Below are positions 76 to 5,383 of a stretch of 5,471 bases of DNA, one piece after another. Both the position numbers and the translations under genes were made by a program. Position 1 is the stretch's first letter. Each line of letters begins with the position of its first letter. Origin of the DNA: Candidatus Eiseniibacteriota bacterium (GTDB lineage Bacteria; Arandabacterota; Arandabacteria; JAGLYR01); NCBI GenBank assembly GCA_023132135.1, contig JAGLYR010000120.1:1-5471 (forward strand), read 5' to 3'. The notes under the pieces are model-generated. The model was not told the origin of the DNA. It saw nothing but the letters and a program-made list of their open reading frames with translations, and made no database searches.

Positions 76-1446
76 TCACCCCTTCGGCTTCTCCACCCCA
101 TACCGCCTCATCTTCCGATGCAGATTCGCCCGGTCGGTGTTCAGGGCCCTCGCTGCTTCGGCGACGTTCCAGCCCGCCGATTCAAGAGCCTGAACAATGA
201 GGTCCTTTTCGTAGGACTCAACTGCCGTCCGCAGCGATTTCGCACACGGTGCGCTGGAGATCGCCTCATCCTGGAGCTCGGCAATATGCTCAGCGCCGAT
301 CTCCGCATCCTCCGTCATGATCACGAGCCGTTCGATCGCGTTCCGGAGCTGGCGCACATTCCCGGGCCAGTCCATCTGCTGAAGACGCGCAATCGCACCA
401 GGCATCAACGTCTTGGCGAGGGCCTCGTCTTCCTGCGAGTACATGTCCAGGAGGTGCCGGGCGAGGGCCGGTATGTCTTTGCGCCGCTTCCGTAGTGGCG
501 GGACGGAAATGGGAATCACGGAAACACGATAGTAGAGATCGTCCCGGAAATTCCCGTCTTCGATCTCCTTCTTGAGATCCTTGTTGGTGGCCGAGATCAT
601 ACGGACGTCGATGGAGATCGGCTGACCGCCGCCGACCCTCTCTATCTCGTTCTCTTCGAGGACCCGGAGCAGCTTGGCTTGGGTTTCCAGGCTCATGTCT
701 CCGATCTCGTCCAGGAGAATCGTTCCCATGTGAGCGAGCTCGAAGCGACCGCGGCGCTGCCGATCCGCACCCGTGAACGCCCCTTTCTCATGACCGAAGA
801 GCTCGCTTTCAATCAGGTCCCGCGGGATGGCGGCACAGTTGACCTTAATGAAGGGCCCGTCGCTCCGGTTGCTGTTGTCGTGGATCGCCCGGGCCACCAG
901 CTCCTTCCCTGTTCCGCTCTCACCCATGATGAGAACCCGGCCGGTGGATGGAGCGGCCTTCGCGATCTGCCGGTACAGCATCCGCATGGGCTCGGAATCG
1001 CCGATCATGACGGACGTGCTCTTGACCCGCGTCTGCAGATCCACATTCTCCTGACGGAGCGATTGGGCTTCCAGGGCATTGTGGATGGAGAGGGTCAGCC
1101 GCTGCGGCTCCAGGGGTTTCTCCAGGAAATCGTAGGCTCCCAGCCTGGTCGCCTTCACCGCAGTGTCGATCGTTGCGTGTCCCGACATCATGATCACAGG
1201 GGTATCCACACCCTTCCCCTTGAGTTGGGCCAGGAAGGCGACTCCATCCATACCCGGAAGAAGAACGTCCAGGAGAATGAGATCGGGAGATTCCTCATCG
1301 AGCACGCCAAGAGCTGTCTCGGCGTCCGCAGCTTCGATCACTCGATATCCCTCATCCGACAGCACGCCCTTGAGTGATGCCCGGATTCCCGCCTCATCGT
1401 CAACGACGAGGATTCCCGGGGCTCCACGATTGCTACTTGCCGACAT
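76..1446 (-). CDS. Sigma-54-dependent response regulator, NtrC family (NtrX-like)
   Basis: Cytoplasmic transcription activator of 456 residues, the usual length for NtrC-family regulators, with all three domains intact. The receiver domain (about 11-125) has the acidic pair D16/D17, phospho-acceptor D60 in LLDVLLPGMDG, switch residue S88 and K110. The AAA+ domain (about 148-385) has Walker A GESGTGKE (175-182), the sigma-54-contacting loop GAFTGA (222-227), Walker B LLDE (244-247) and the WPGNVRQLRN segment (360-369). A Fis-type helix-turn-helix occupies about 405-450. The family uses ATP hydrolysis to open sigma-54 RNA polymerase promoters from upstream sites. The gene directly follows its kinase, with the kinase TGA touching its ATG and AGGAGG 5 nt upstream, so translation is probably coupled. 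The receiver sequence and kinase pairing look NtrX-like. A nitrogen role is not implied: the nearby sigma-54 promoter suggests control of an envelope gene. The class is certain, the orthologue name is not. Confidence 0.96.
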   Translation of the reverse strand: MSASSNRGAPGILVVDDEAGIRASLKGVLSDEGYRVIEAADAETALGVLDEESPDLILLDVLLPGMDGVAFLAQLKGKGVDTPVIMMSGHATIDTAVKATRLGAYDFLEKPLEPQRLTLSIHNALEAQSLRQENVDLQTRVKSTSVMIGDSEPMRMLYRQIAKAAPSTGRVLIMGESGTGKELVARAIHDNSNRSDGPFIKVNCAAIPRDLIESELFGHEKGAFTGADRQRRGRFELAHMGTILLDEIGDMSLETQAKLLRVLEENEIERVGGGQPISIDVRMISATNKDLKKEIEDGNFRDDLYYRVSVIPISVPPLRKRRKDIPALARHLLDMYSQEDEALAKTLMPGAIARLQQMDWPGNVRQLRNAIERLVIMTEDAEIGAEHIAELQDEAISSAPCAKSLRTAVESYEKDLIVQALESAGWNVAEAARALNTDRANLHRKMRRYGVEKPKG

Positions 1447-1457
1447 TCACGCCTCCT
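1447..1457 (-). promoter_or_regulatory. Ribosome binding site and TGA/ATG junction coupling kinase to regulator
   Basis: On the minus strand AGGAGG (1452-1457) sits inside the last kinase codons, 5 nt before the regulator ATG (1444-1446). The kinase TGA (1447-1449) directly precedes that ATG with no gap. This arrangement fixes the regulator start and is typical of translational coupling, which would keep kinase and regulator levels linked. Confidence 0.8.
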
Positions 1458-3000
1458 CTTTCCCTCTCCCAGCCGGAAACCACAGCCGAAACACCGTCCC
1501 CCGTCCCTCCTCACTTTCCACCTCGACCGTCCCTCCATGATCCGTCACAATGCGGTGCACGATGGCTAACCCCAACCCGCTCCCCCGCTTCCTGGTCGTC
1601 ACGTAGGGTTCAAACACATGATCCCGGATATCCACCGGCAACCCCGGACCGCTGTCCGCGACGGAAACCCGGACCCCCGGCCTTGCGGGGGGGGCAACCT
1701 TCTCCAACCGGACGGCAATGGTCCCACCCGACGGCATGGCCTCCAGGGCATTCTTGATCAGGTTGCCCAGCACTTGGCGGTACTGGTCGGGATCCACGGG
1801 AATCCGGGGCAACCCATCCGGGATGTCCAGCTGCACCGTCACCCCCGCGCTTAGCTCTTTGTAGAGATCCAGCACCGATCCGCTCAGCTCCCCAAGATCA
1901 GAGGACACGGGATTCGGCTGAGGCATCCGCGCGAACCTGGAGAATTCGTCGGCCAGCCGCCGGAGATTGGCAACCTCAGTATCCATGAGATCGAGGCACT
2001 CGGTGAAAACCATCTGTGCCTCGCGATTCACCTCCGGCATTCGTTTCCGGAGCCGGTGAATCGAGAGCTGAACCGGAGTGAGCGGGTTCTTGATTTCGTG
2101 GGCAATTCGTCGCGCCACGTCCCGCCACGCCGCCGCTCGCTCGGCCCGTCTCAGGTTCTCCTTCGAGAGCCTGAGATCCCCGGTCATCTGGTTGAAAGAG
2201 CCGACCAGGAGCCCGATCTCATCCTTGGCCCGCACCTGAACGGGATGATCCAGATCCCCCAGGGAAACACGCCGGGTTCCCTTCACCAGTTCCAGTATGG
2301 GGCTGGAGATACTCCGGCCCAGCATCCGGCTCACAATCAGGGACGCAAGTACCACCAGCGCCACCAGCACCACGGTTCCGACCACAACCGTCGCAATCTG
2401 AATCCGCTCGTAGCCCGCCAGTCGCCGGTAGAGATCCGCATCGGAGGCCAATCGACGGATGCGGCTCATGACCTCGGCGGGAGGCTGGATACCCACGAGC
2501 AGCACATCGTCTCCTTCTCCCACGGGGAGAAGCGCGCAAACCGACCTGCTCTCCAGATCCAGAGGCGGCGAGCACGAGCCCGAGAGAGCAGCCTCCGCCA
2601 AGGCCGGTTCCAGTTCCTCTTGCGGGCCCTCCGCACCACCTGCCGCCCAGACCTTCCACCTTCCCCCCTCCCGGCGATAGATGGCCAGCAGATCCAACCC
2701 CACCTCGGATGCATTGTTCCGAAGGAACCTGGACACCTCTGCACCGTCGGCCTCCGGATCCAGCAGGACCAGCAGGAACTCGCCCGCCTGGACCGCTTCC
2801 TGCCGGTAGTGCTCCAGGCTTTCCCGCGCCACCGCCAGGGAGTTGTTGATCGTGCGCTCAATGCCCGGATTCTGCCAATACTCGATGGTGTCGGTTGCAA
2901 AACGAAGATAGAAAAACGTCAGCAGCGCGATGGGGATGACGGCTACAAGAACGAAGCAGAGAACCAGTCGTGTGCGGAATCCGATGCGCAGTGTAGACAT
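1447..3000 (-). CDS. Membrane sensor histidine kinase, NtrY-like
   Basis: Inner-membrane kinase of 517 residues, likely phosphorylating the regulator encoded next to it. Order of parts: short cytoplasmic N-terminus, TM1 (about 11-33), periplasmic domain of about 165 residues (34-199), TM2 (about 202-224), HAMP linker (about 225-278), HisKA with H301 in RRIAHEIKNPLTPVQLS, and HATPase with N-box N413/N417, G1 DSGPGL (449-454), F-box FEPY (463-466) and G2 GSGLGLAI (473-480). All catalytic motifs are intact. The text around H301 is characteristic of NtrY-type kinases, but there is no obvious PAS domain between HAMP and HisKA, and only two membrane spans. I do not recognise the periplasmic fold (Cache-like is possible); it contains two cysteines, C143 and C155. 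The ATG at 3000 places TM1 correctly, although the upstream GGTGGG is a weak ribosome site. An uninterrupted C8 coding tract lies at 1687-1694. Promoter candidate: 3075-3103. Confidence 0.95.
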   Translation of the reverse strand: MSTLRIGFRTRLVLCFVLVAVIPIALLTFFYLRFATDTIEYWQNPGIERTINNSLAVARESLEHYRQEAVQAGEFLLVLLDPEADGAEVSRFLRNNASEVGLDLLAIYRREGGRWKVWAAGGAEGPQEELEPALAEAALSGSCSPPLDLESRSVCALLPVGEGDDVLLVGIQPPAEVMSRIRRLASDADLYRRLAGYERIQIATVVVGTVVLVALVVLASLIVSRMLGRSISSPILELVKGTRRVSLGDLDHPVQVRAKDEIGLLVGSFNQMTGDLRLSKENLRRAERAAAWRDVARRIAHEIKNPLTPVQLSIHRLRKRMPEVNREAQMVFTECLDLMDTEVANLRRLADEFSRFARMPQPNPVSSDLGELSGSVLDLYKELSAGVTVQLDIPDGLPRIPVDPDQYRQVLGNLIKNALEAMPSGGTIAVRLEKVAPPARPGVRVSVADSGPGLPVDIRDHVFEPYVTTRKRGSGLGLAIVHRIVTDHGGTVEVESEEGRGTVFRLWFPAGRGKEEA

Positions 3001-3122: not shown

Positions 3123-3178
3123 CGGAGCGAGGGGGCGACAAGGCGAGGGGGCGAGAGCGCGAGAGGGCGAGAGGGTCA
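3123..3178. repeat. Octamer tandem repeat ending in GCGA (six to seven units)
   Basis: Consecutive 8-bp units from 3123 are CGGAGCGA, GGGGGCGA, CAAGGCGA, GGGGGCGA, GAGCGCGA and GAGGGCGA, with a decayed seventh, GAGGGTCA. The period is exactly 8 bp, and CGA is kept in all six good units (GCGA in all six). The plus strand is almost entirely purine apart from the C of CGA. It lies between the two divergent promoters. Function is unknown; it may be a spreading short repeat family, a strand-asymmetric structure or a protein array. Confidence 0.7.
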
Positions 3179-3318
3179 ATCCGACACACCCAATCCGCGT
3201 CCGAGCTACACAACCGAAGGCGCCATCCATCGCCGGCGGATCTCGGCTACCACTGTAACTCATTTACAAGAAAAGAAATGGCTACATCCACTGCCACACG
3301 GAGCGTATCGAGTCCACT

Positions 3319-3333
3319 TGGCACACCAGTTGC
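3319..3333 (+). promoter_or_regulatory. Sigma-54 (RpoN) -24/-12 promoter for the outer-membrane gene
   Basis: TGGCAC (3319-3324), five intervening bases and TTGC (3330-3333) match the core of the sigma-54 consensus TGGCAC-N5-TTGC exactly. The invariant GG (3320-3321) and GC (3332-3333) are 10 nt apart, as required. Transcription would start near 3345, giving a leader of about 68 nt before the ATG at 3413. The gene for a GAFTGA-containing sigma-54 activator sits on the other side of the same intergenic region, which strongly supports function. Confidence 0.82.
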
Positions 3334-3401
3334 GTATGCTCATGAAAGGGAGCCGGAACACTCCCCTGGAACATTCCAGTTCCCCTTTGATATCCCCCCT
3401 T

Positions 3402-3412: not shown

Positions 3413-5383
3413 ATGGCACGGATTCTGAAGATTCTGAAGACAGTGGGCGACCGTCACTTTACCCGTCTGCATTCCCCATGGAGGTTTCGGATGACAAGAG
3501 GCGGCCTGACCCTCGCTCTGGTGTTTCTCGTGTTCGCGAGCGCCACTGCAGAAGCTGCTGTATCGGACGACGCGGATGGAGACCGCACGAAGAGAGAATT
3601 GAGAAAAGAAGCCCTCCGCCACGCGCCGGGACTCGACCGGGACGCCGAGCTCATGTCCGACGATTTTGTCCTGGACGAGGGCGAAGTCTACCGGGGCGAT
3701 CTCATCGTGCACGGCAACCTGGACATCCTCGGCCTTCTCAAGGGCGACGTAGTGGCCTTTGGTGACATCCGCCTGGGCCCCGAGGCGGAGATCCGGGGAG
3801 ACGTGGTGGCCATCGGGGGCCGGATTACGCGAGACGAAGGGTCGGAGGTGCGCGGGGACGTGGTGGAGGTGCGGGAGCAGTGCGACTCCGTGGGCGCCAG
3901 GGGAATCACCACGAGGGTATGTGCTTTCGAGTCGGGGTCTCATCTCTTTCCCAAGGGGAAAGACGGAGGGGTTCTCTTCCGGTACAAGGATGCCGCCGTC
4001 GATGAAGTCTACCTTGTGGGGGATTTCAACGACTGGGACGAAGAGGCGGACCCCATGGTCCGGGACGGAGACCTCTGGAAGCTGACCGTACCTCTGGAGA
4101 AGGGCCGCTATGAATACGCCTTCATCGTGGATGGAGAGTGGACCACCGATCCATCGAATCCCGATGAAGTGAAGGACCGGGAGGAGGATCTCGTCTACTC
4201 GGTGATTCACGTGAAGCGCAGTGGGAAGGTCCAGAAACCCAGGAAGCGATTGACCCTCCGCGTGCACACGCACGAGGACCATGTTTTTGACATGACCGCC
4301 CGCTACAACCGGGTTGACGCGTTCTATCTTGCAGGTAGCCTGGCCTTCGAACACCGGGAAACCTATGTGCCGAGCGCGCGGGCCCGGCTGGGCTATTCCT
4401 GGGGACGCGAGGAGTGGTTGGGCGAAGTGGAGGTTTCTCAGCCCGTCATCGGATGCGACAACGGACTCTCCCTGGGGTTCAACTACCACCAGGATACGTA
4501 CAGTCACGATTTCGATGAGGAGATCATCGGAGATACAGAAAACACACTGGCGGGGATTTTCCTGAAGGAGGATTTCCGGGACTACTACGAGAGGGTGGGC
4601 GCGTCCGTCTTCGCGAACGTGAAGGCGGGGAGCCACGTCAATATCCGCGTGGAGTACTGGAAGGACGATCTGGCGTCCCTCGCTCAGAACACGGATTGGG
4701 CCCTCTTTGGCGGGGACAAATGTTTCCGCTGCAATCCGTCACTGCACACGAACATGCCCTATTGCGATCTTCGCCGAGTATCCATGTGCTCCATGCGCAT
4801 GTGCTCCATGGGAGAGGTCTTCGACCCATCTACTCCGGAGCTGGGAACAATGAAGAGCCTGTGGGGTCTTTACACTCTGGACCTCCGCAACGATAAGGAG
4901 AACCCGACCCGGGGTCTGTACGCGCGGATCGGGGGCGAGAAGGCCGGTGGGGATCTCGGTGGGAACTACACCTTCGCCAAGTACTGGGCGGACGTCCGGA
5001 AGTACACAAAAATCGGGCCCCGGTGGTACCTCGATCTCCGTATGTTGGCCGGCGCAGCGGAAGATGACCTGCCTCCCTGGAAGCAGTACTACGTAGGCGG
5101 TATCGGGACCCTGACCGCGCGCAGGTTCAAGGAATTCCGGGGTGATCGGGTTCTCCTGGGCAGTCTGGAATACCGGGTTGGCCTGGGATCCGACATTCAC
5201 GGTGCTTTCTTTCTGGATTCGGGAGACGCGTGGTCCCCAGAGGAGAGGAACTGCGACATCAAGACCGACGTCGGGATTGCGCTTATGGATTCCGACAATG
5301 ATTTCCGCGTGAGCTATGCAAAGAAATCCGAGGATCTTTCCGGGGACGGCGTGTGGACATTGCGACTGAATCGAACCTTCTAG
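3413..5383 (+). CDS. Exported CBM48-containing Omp85-like outer-membrane protein
   Basis: Predicted outer-membrane protein of 656 residues from the ATG at 3413. A second in-frame ATG at 3491 (M27, 630 residues) also has GGAGG 6 nt upstream and gives a textbook signal peptide: MTRGG, hydrophobic core, cleavage near AEA-AV. Using the longer numbering: a bactofilin-like beta-solenoid with GDLIV/GDVVA/GDVVAIGG/GDVVEV repeats (about 92-153); an AMPK-type CBM48 domain (about 183-267) with FNDW, LWKL and YEYAFIVDGEW; a beta-barrel region (about 275-656) with the Omp85-type motif DLRNDKENPTRG (490-501), the GG...ARRF loop-6-like segment (562-572), GDRVLLGSLEYR, and terminal aromatic F656 as expected of a BAM-recognised strand. 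No POTRA domain is apparent. A Cys/Met-rich insert (437-466) is unusual. The sigma-54 promoter upstream implies control by the adjacent regulator. The role is unknown; translocation, glycan binding or envelope scaffolding are possible. Barrel class is fairly sure, substrate is not. Confidence 0.88.
   Translation: MARILKILKTVGDRHFTRLHSPWRFRMTRGGLTLALVFLVFASATAEAAVSDDADGDRTKRELRKEALRHAPGLDRDAELMSDDFVLDEGEVYRGDLIVHGNLDILGLLKGDVVAFGDIRLGPEAEIRGDVVAIGGRITRDEGSEVRGDVVEVREQCDSVGARGITTRVCAFESGSHLFPKGKDGGVLFRYKDAAVDEVYLVGDFNDWDEEADPMVRDGDLWKLTVPLEKGRYEYAFIVDGEWTTDPSNPDEVKDREEDLVYSVIHVKRSGKVQKPRKRLTLRVHTHEDHVFDMTARYNRVDAFYLAGSLAFEHRETYVPSARARLGYSWGREEWLGEVEVSQPVIGCDNGLSLGFNYHQDTYSHDFDEEIIGDTENTLAGIFLKEDFRDYYERVGASVFANVKAGSHVNIRVEYWKDDLASLAQNTDWALFGGDKCFRCNPSLHTNMPYCDLRRVSMCSMRMCSMGEVFDPSTPELGTMKSLWGLYTLDLRNDKENPTRGLYARIGGEKAGGDLGGNYTFAKYWADVRKYTKIGPRWYLDLRMLAGAAEDDLPPWKQYYVGGIGTLTARRFKEFRGDRVLLGSLEYRVGLGSDIHGAFFLDSGDAWSPEERNCDIKTDVGIALMDSDNDFRVSYAKKSEDLSGDGVWTLRLNRTF
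3480..3493 (+). promoter_or_regulatory. Internal Shine-Dalgarno and alternative start (ATG 3491)
   Basis: GGAGG (3480-3484) lies 6 nt before an in-frame ATG (3491-3493), the same spacing as at the first start. Initiation here removes a 26-residue basic N-terminal extension and leaves a standard short n-region before the signal-peptide core. On protein grounds this start is at least as plausible as 3413. Confidence 0.55.
4783..4810 (+). repeat. Direct repeat inside the barrel gene encoding MCSM-R-MCSM
   Basis: The 13-bp sequence CATGTGCTCCATG occurs at 4783-4795 and 4798-4810, a 15-bp period that preserves frame. It encodes the duplicated peptide MCSM-R-MCSM within the Cys/Met-rich insert. 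The exact identity at synonymous positions suggests a recent in-frame duplication. Confidence 0.8.

Follow-up and report, generated by a model that had tools for sequence, protein, structure and literature searches.

A POTRA-less Omp85-type barrel protein with a bactofilin-fold solenoid and a CBM48 domain, from a barrel lineage linked to NtrYX-like and DUF4390 genes

Omp85 proteins carry a (V/I)RG(Y/F) motif at the L6 tip and an (F/G)xDxG motif in the barrel wall, and a salt bridge between Arg and Asp holds the two together (PMC4490367). Omp85 barrels without POTRA domains have been assigned to separate subfamilies ('noNterm' and others) by Heinz and Lithgow in 2014 (PMC4104836). The NtrYX-family system PlrSR of Bordetella contains a periplasmic third component, the DUF4390 protein PlrP, as established by genetic evidence in 2026; PlrP restrains the phosphatase activity of the NtrY-family kinase PlrS, probably via the periplasmic PDC domain (PMC13001219). 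The NtrX proteins of beta-proteobacteria lack the sigma-54 AAA+ domain (PMC13001219), and NtrYX of Rhodobacter sphaeroides directly controls envelope genes (PMC7240162). The signal of NtrY-family kinases is not settled in the literature found, and the action of PlrP on one such kinase is a recent finding. A relay of outer-membrane state over the periplasm to an inner-membrane regulator is exemplified by RcsF-BamA/OMP-IgaA of the Rcs system (PMC5736177). The Rcs relay resembles the locus described here by analogy only: the two are not homologous, and Rcs uses a lipoprotein rather than a barrel head.

The window, a whole contig of 5471 bases, contains an uninterrupted open reading frame on the + strand for a 656-residue protein, and the contig ends 88 nt past this gene. 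The protein consists of a signal peptide, a bactofilin-fold solenoid (residues 79-154), an AMPK-type CBM48 domain (residues 186-270) and an Omp85 barrel (residues 284-656), as follows.

3413..5383, + strand: POTRA-less Omp85-type outer-membrane barrel protein with a solenoid and CBM48 head (656 aa; open reading frame and Pfam)
3491..3556, + strand: signal peptide, residues 27-48 (sequence reading)
3647..3874, + strand: bactofilin-fold beta-solenoid, residues 79-154 (AlphaFold2 pLDDT 70-87; 6rib_A; sub-threshold Pfam match)
3968..4222, + strand: AMPK-beta type CBM48/E-set domain, residues 186-270 (AMPK1_CBM; AMPK beta1 1z0n)
4262..5380, + strand: Omp85-type beta-barrel, residues 284-656, with F at the end (PF01103; hhalign; BamA and TamA PDB chains)
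5114..5122, + strand: position of the L6 lid motif, T568-A569-R570 (R-G-(Y/F) in Omp85; alignment columns)
5210..5224, + strand: FxDxG motif, F600-L-D-S-G604 (alignment; motif definition from PMC4490367)

An earlier note on this DNA had described a secretion signal, an Omp85-type barrel with a C-terminal F, and a solenoid and CBM48 domain in place of the POTRA region. Each of these elements is borne out by the analysis, with one caveat on the coordinates: a second plausible start, the ATG at 3491, is likewise preceded by a GGAGG Shine-Dalgarno sequence and yields a canonical signal peptide (MTRGGLTLALVFLVFASATAEA/AV). Translation may therefore begin at this codon. No POTRA family model was found among the hmmscan Pfam matches of the 656-residue product at E<=1, and a hidden POTRA domain was rejected on this basis. 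The combination of solenoid, CBM48 domain and POTRA-less Omp85 barrel was not found described in a literature search, which also yielded no paper linking CBM48 to an outer-membrane barrel protein.

The GDVV repeats of the solenoid match the Pfam Bactofilin family at residues 86-133 with 19.4 bits, below the cut-off of 27.9. In an AlphaFold2 model built without relatives, residues from about 79 to 154 reach pLDDT values of 70-87 and form the sole confident region of the whole protein. The solved structures nearest to the solenoid model are bactofilins, with the best match to 6rib_A (Z 11.5, 1.8 Å over 77 residues). The fold is common to the solenoid and the Thermus bactofilin (6rib), but in the window protein the solenoid is part of a fusion with a signal peptide and an outer-membrane barrel, and its Pfam score lies below the cut-off.

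The barrel is assigned to the Omp85 type by homology and not to an unrelated porin family. Residues 433-617 match Pfam Omp85 (PF01103) with 58.1 bits (cut-off 24; E 1.4e-15). In hhalign, an alignment of 37 related barrel sequences matches over its full length five BamA-type proteins that carry POTRA domains (E 1.3e-36, probability 99.9), and PDB matches of its profile include chains of BamA and TamA. Given this identity, the barrel is predicted from the profile homology to have 16 strands, with which its length of about 373 residues and the full-length alignment agree; the barrel alone was modeled by AlphaFold2 without relatives at a pLDDT of 31. The FxDxG motif of Omp85 is present as FLDSG. 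In contrast, the (V/I)RG(Y/F) motif at L6 is replaced by LTARRF, and the protein was therefore classified as a derived member of the superfamily rather than a canonical Omp85 insertase. The window protein thus shares barrel homology and FxDxG with BamA and TamA but differs from them in the absence of POTRA domains, the loss of RG(Y/F) at L6 and the nature of its periplasmic head.

Barrels of this family are common across the 386 sampled genomes. Their heads comprise a solenoid, a CBM48/E-set domain, a solenoid with CBM48, or no head at all. Because solenoid-barrel and bare-barrel relatives are widespread, the window protein is not alone in lacking POTRA domains. Within the set examined, the solenoid-CBM48-barrel arrangement is confined to the class of the window, in which the barrel occurs in five of eight genomes; in a sixth genome, a truncated copy lies where a contig ends (L016). 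The best-preserved relatives in the class contain two solenoid blocks and three CBM48 domains. Three solenoid-barrel genes outside the NtrX-linked clade (L101, L104 and L105) adjoin two recurring genes of ~590 and ~260 aa.

Beyond its own class, the clade of the window barrel is represented in at least four lineages. In a maximum-likelihood tree, a clade of 13 (support 91/83), nested within a 17-row clade (100/99), contains all NtrX-linked members, including that of the window, except one (G303), and NtrX linkage requires two changes on this tree. The clade barrel is present once per genome in 7/7 genomes of one lineage and 33/47 of another. RG(Y/F) at L6 is found in none of the 13 NtrX-clade members of the 37-row set, compared with 18 of the 24 others. 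In a set of 42 loci, it is retained in two of 37 readable members, the rest having mostly RAH or RGH; the readable members are the 41 tallied loci minus four in which the pattern matched elsewhere (L135, L136, L138 and L142), and one further locus (L147) gave no reading. The L6 arginine is kept in most clade members outside the class of the window and lost within it. Because one clade amounts to one evolutionary event, the apparent erosion of the motif shows an evolutionary shift without indicating its cause. With its exchangeable periplasmic heads and eroded L6, this branch of Omp85 provides a natural test of the purpose of that motif.

The genes upstream of the barrel gene and two candidate regulatory elements are arranged as follows.

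76..1446, - strand: NtrX-like sigma-54 response regulator with a GAFTGA motif (Pfam; NCBIfam)
1447..3000, - strand: NtrY-like sensor histidine kinase with HAMP, HisKA and HATPase domains, oriented divergently to the barrel gene (Pfam; synteny)
3173..3187, + strand: candidate NtrX enhancer palindrome GGGTCAATCCGACAC, with two mismatches to GTGTCA-N3-TGACAC
3318..3334, + strand: sigma-54 -24/-12 element TTGGCACACCAGTTGCG (exact TGGCAC-N5-TTGC at 3319-3333), 95 nt upstream of the ATG at 3413

The best NCBIfam match of the regulator is NtrX (463 bits, below the 600-bit equivalog cut-off), and the kinase is not matched by the NtrY models of NCBIfam; the pair is therefore termed NtrYX-like. In relatives, the conserved order is rlmN, NtrY-like kinase, NtrX-like sigma-54 regulator, barrel and DUF4390. 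NtrX lies upstream of the barrel gene in 39/42 loci and DUF4390 downstream in 36/42, counts in which loci of one lineage are not independent of each other; several, but not all, of the misses are at contig ends. Of 22 pairs of barrel and DUF4390 genes from the same genome, 13 lie within 5 kb of each other, where 0.06 would be expected. The Omp85-type barrel lineage of the window gene is thus tied to NtrY/NtrX-like genes and DUF4390 across several lineages. No paper joining NtrX with a POTRA-less Omp85 of this kind was found in the literature, and the accessible part of the survey of POTRA-less subfamilies (PMC4104836) describes neither the NtrYX/DUF4390 linkage nor a solenoid-CBM48 head; these two features and the eroded L6 distinguish the present protein from the subfamilies as presented there. 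In two genomes (G001, L033:1450-2958, and similarly G003), a protein with HAMP-type and SpoIIE-like phosphatase regions is encoded between rlmN and the NtrY-like kinase.

The sigma-54 element before the barrel gene is the only exact TGGCAC-N5-TTGC match in the window. Sites with 12-13/13 matches also precede the barrel gene in four other genomes (G001, G003, G004 and G303). The 1.41 Mb of scanned strands, in which overlapping loci are counted more than once, contain just seven sites of this quality. The genome of the window encodes sigma-54 (rpoN), and G(A/S)FTGA is kept in all but one of the NtrX proteins. Three relatives of the same class carry the palindrome GTGTCA-N3-TGACAC (two perfect, one with two mismatches) at a distance of 116-119 bp before the promoter, and its two-mismatch form in the window lies 145 bp upstream. 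With up to two mismatches, 0.011 such palindromes are expected per 400 bp. We infer that NtrX binds this element. In G001, a possible 37-aa membrane peptide is encoded downstream of the sigma-54 promoter and ahead of the barrel gene (L033:6210-6323).

The conserved NtrYX-like/DUF4390 block suggests an undescribed outer-membrane arm of this signalling system. Recurrent ntrYX/DUF4390 synteny, the role of PlrP, the tree clade, the sigma-54 element, the palindrome and the L6 loss lead us to propose, at slightly under even confidence, that the window protein serves an NtrYX-type signalling locus as its outer-membrane component. Several observations count against this assignment. The ntrYX genes of the window are divergent from the barrel gene rather than in line with it. 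The regulator scores below the NtrX cut-off, and the kinase lacks an NtrY model match. DUF4390 was not found by Pfam or the family alignment in the 96%-complete genome of the window, where the contig breaks off 88 nt behind the barrel gene. The L6 arginine persists in most members beyond the class. The locus resembles PlrP-PlrSR (PMC13001219) in its NtrY/NtrX-type pair and adjacent periplasmic DUF4390, a likeness that comes from the relatives and not from the window itself; it differs in its barrel, no counterpart of which is described for PlrP-PlrSR, and in that the regulator retains its sigma-54 AAA+ domain. The new content is the association of a derived Omp85 barrel with an NtrYX-like/PlrP locus in several lineages.

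A more specific proposal, which we put forward more tentatively than the assignment to the locus, is a two-membrane module of several bacterial lineages in which a repurposed POTRA-less Omp85 monitors the outer membrane or wall and signals through PlrP (DUF4390) to the NtrY-like kinase, with NtrX and sigma-54 feeding back on the barrel gene. As part of the assignment to the locus itself, the NtrY-like kinase would sense envelope trouble, and the NtrX-like regulator with sigma-54 would drive the barrel gene and, in relatives, also the DUF4390 gene behind it. The barrel would be embedded in the outer membrane, and its solenoid/CBM48 head would lie in the periplasm. The head would bear on the DUF4390/PlrP protein and thereby on the periplasmic sensor domain of the kinase, feeding back information on the condition of the outer membrane or cell wall. 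The head, which is exchangeable, probably sets reach or contact (wall, glycan or partner). Protein insertion would not be the main task of the barrel because the L6 lid motif is eroded. A barrel encoded between the regulator and PlrP is a specific candidate for the signal source that has been lacking.

Alternatively, the protein may be an accessory Omp85 insertase or translocase under NtrX/sigma-54 control that is induced by envelope stress for particular substrates, with the head receiving substrate like a POTRA domain; the barrel would then be an output and not a sensor. The end-to-end profile match to BamA-type proteins, the retained FxDxG and the sigma-54 promoter are consistent with this role, as are the accessory assembly proposed for POTRA-less Omp85 proteins by Heinz and Lithgow (PMC4104836) and the direct regulation of R. 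sphaeroides envelope genes by NtrYX (PMC7240162). However, RG(Y/F) at L6 has nearly disappeared from the clade, with the arginine also lost in the class of the window, no conserved substrate gene adjoins the barrel gene, and the barrel is constantly paired with the regulatory protein DUF4390. We regard the insertase as a real contender of lesser probability than the outer-membrane signalling component. The synteny is equally compatible with a regulated effector and with a sensor. The sensor arm and the regulated accessory insertase are the leading readings, and the evidence does not decisively separate them.

The earlier note had inferred a barrel with a built-in glycan-binding or scaffolding head, perhaps for the transport or attachment of a polysaccharide or protein in the envelope; the version weighed here concerns an alpha-glucan. 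The CBM48 domain exceeds the Pfam cut-offs for AMPK1_CBM (residues 189-270, 49.3 bits against 26.8, E 5.7e-13) and CBM_48 (34.7 bits against 22.4). Its best matches among solved sequences are AMPK beta subunits (AMPK beta1 1z0n, E 2.5e-9). It retains tryptophans equivalent to W100 and W133 of AMPK beta1 but not the equivalents of K126, T148 and N150, all of which we take to be glycogen-site or ligand positions. Sequence family and the two tryptophans are thus common to the window domain and the AMPK beta glycogen-binding domain; the window domain differs in its predicted extracytoplasmic location, its fusion to a barrel and the altered other ligand positions. The retained aromatic positions and the presence of other CBM48-like proteins in the genome agree with an alpha-glucan role. 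Against it, the three other AMPK ligand positions are changed, no glycan enzyme was recognised next to the barrel gene in the relatives examined, and clade heads vary between solenoid with CBM48, CBM48 alone and none, CBM48 being absent from most members of one lineage and degenerate in others. The head was rejected as the defining feature of the protein because CBM48 is optional in the clade and the gene neighbourhood persists. Since the heads are optional accessories, the sequence predicts glycan binding as at most an accessory function, a glycan-transport reading is unsupported, and we regard the alpha-glucan role as improbable. Equally hard to credit is a housekeeping barrel unrelated to NtrYX in a merely inherited gene order: rlmN, which has no evident functional link, does belong to the block, but the linkage recurs in another order (G161, L154:1-5927, barrel-x-DUF4390-ntrY-ntrX, with DUF4390 preceding the kinase, the Bordetella arrangement) and also for a less closely related Omp85 (G068, L155, ntrY-ntrX-Omp85-DUF4390), and a sigma-54 promoter and palindrome lie at the barrel gene.

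CBM48 heads in the sample occur in the NtrX-linked clade and in one more member, in the phylum of G201 (L151). In a scan of genome contigs, matches were confined to the CBM48 region. Further CBM48-like domains are encoded on four contigs of the window's genome (C49, C119, C287 and C160), and the C49 gene has a signal-peptide-like stretch at its start.
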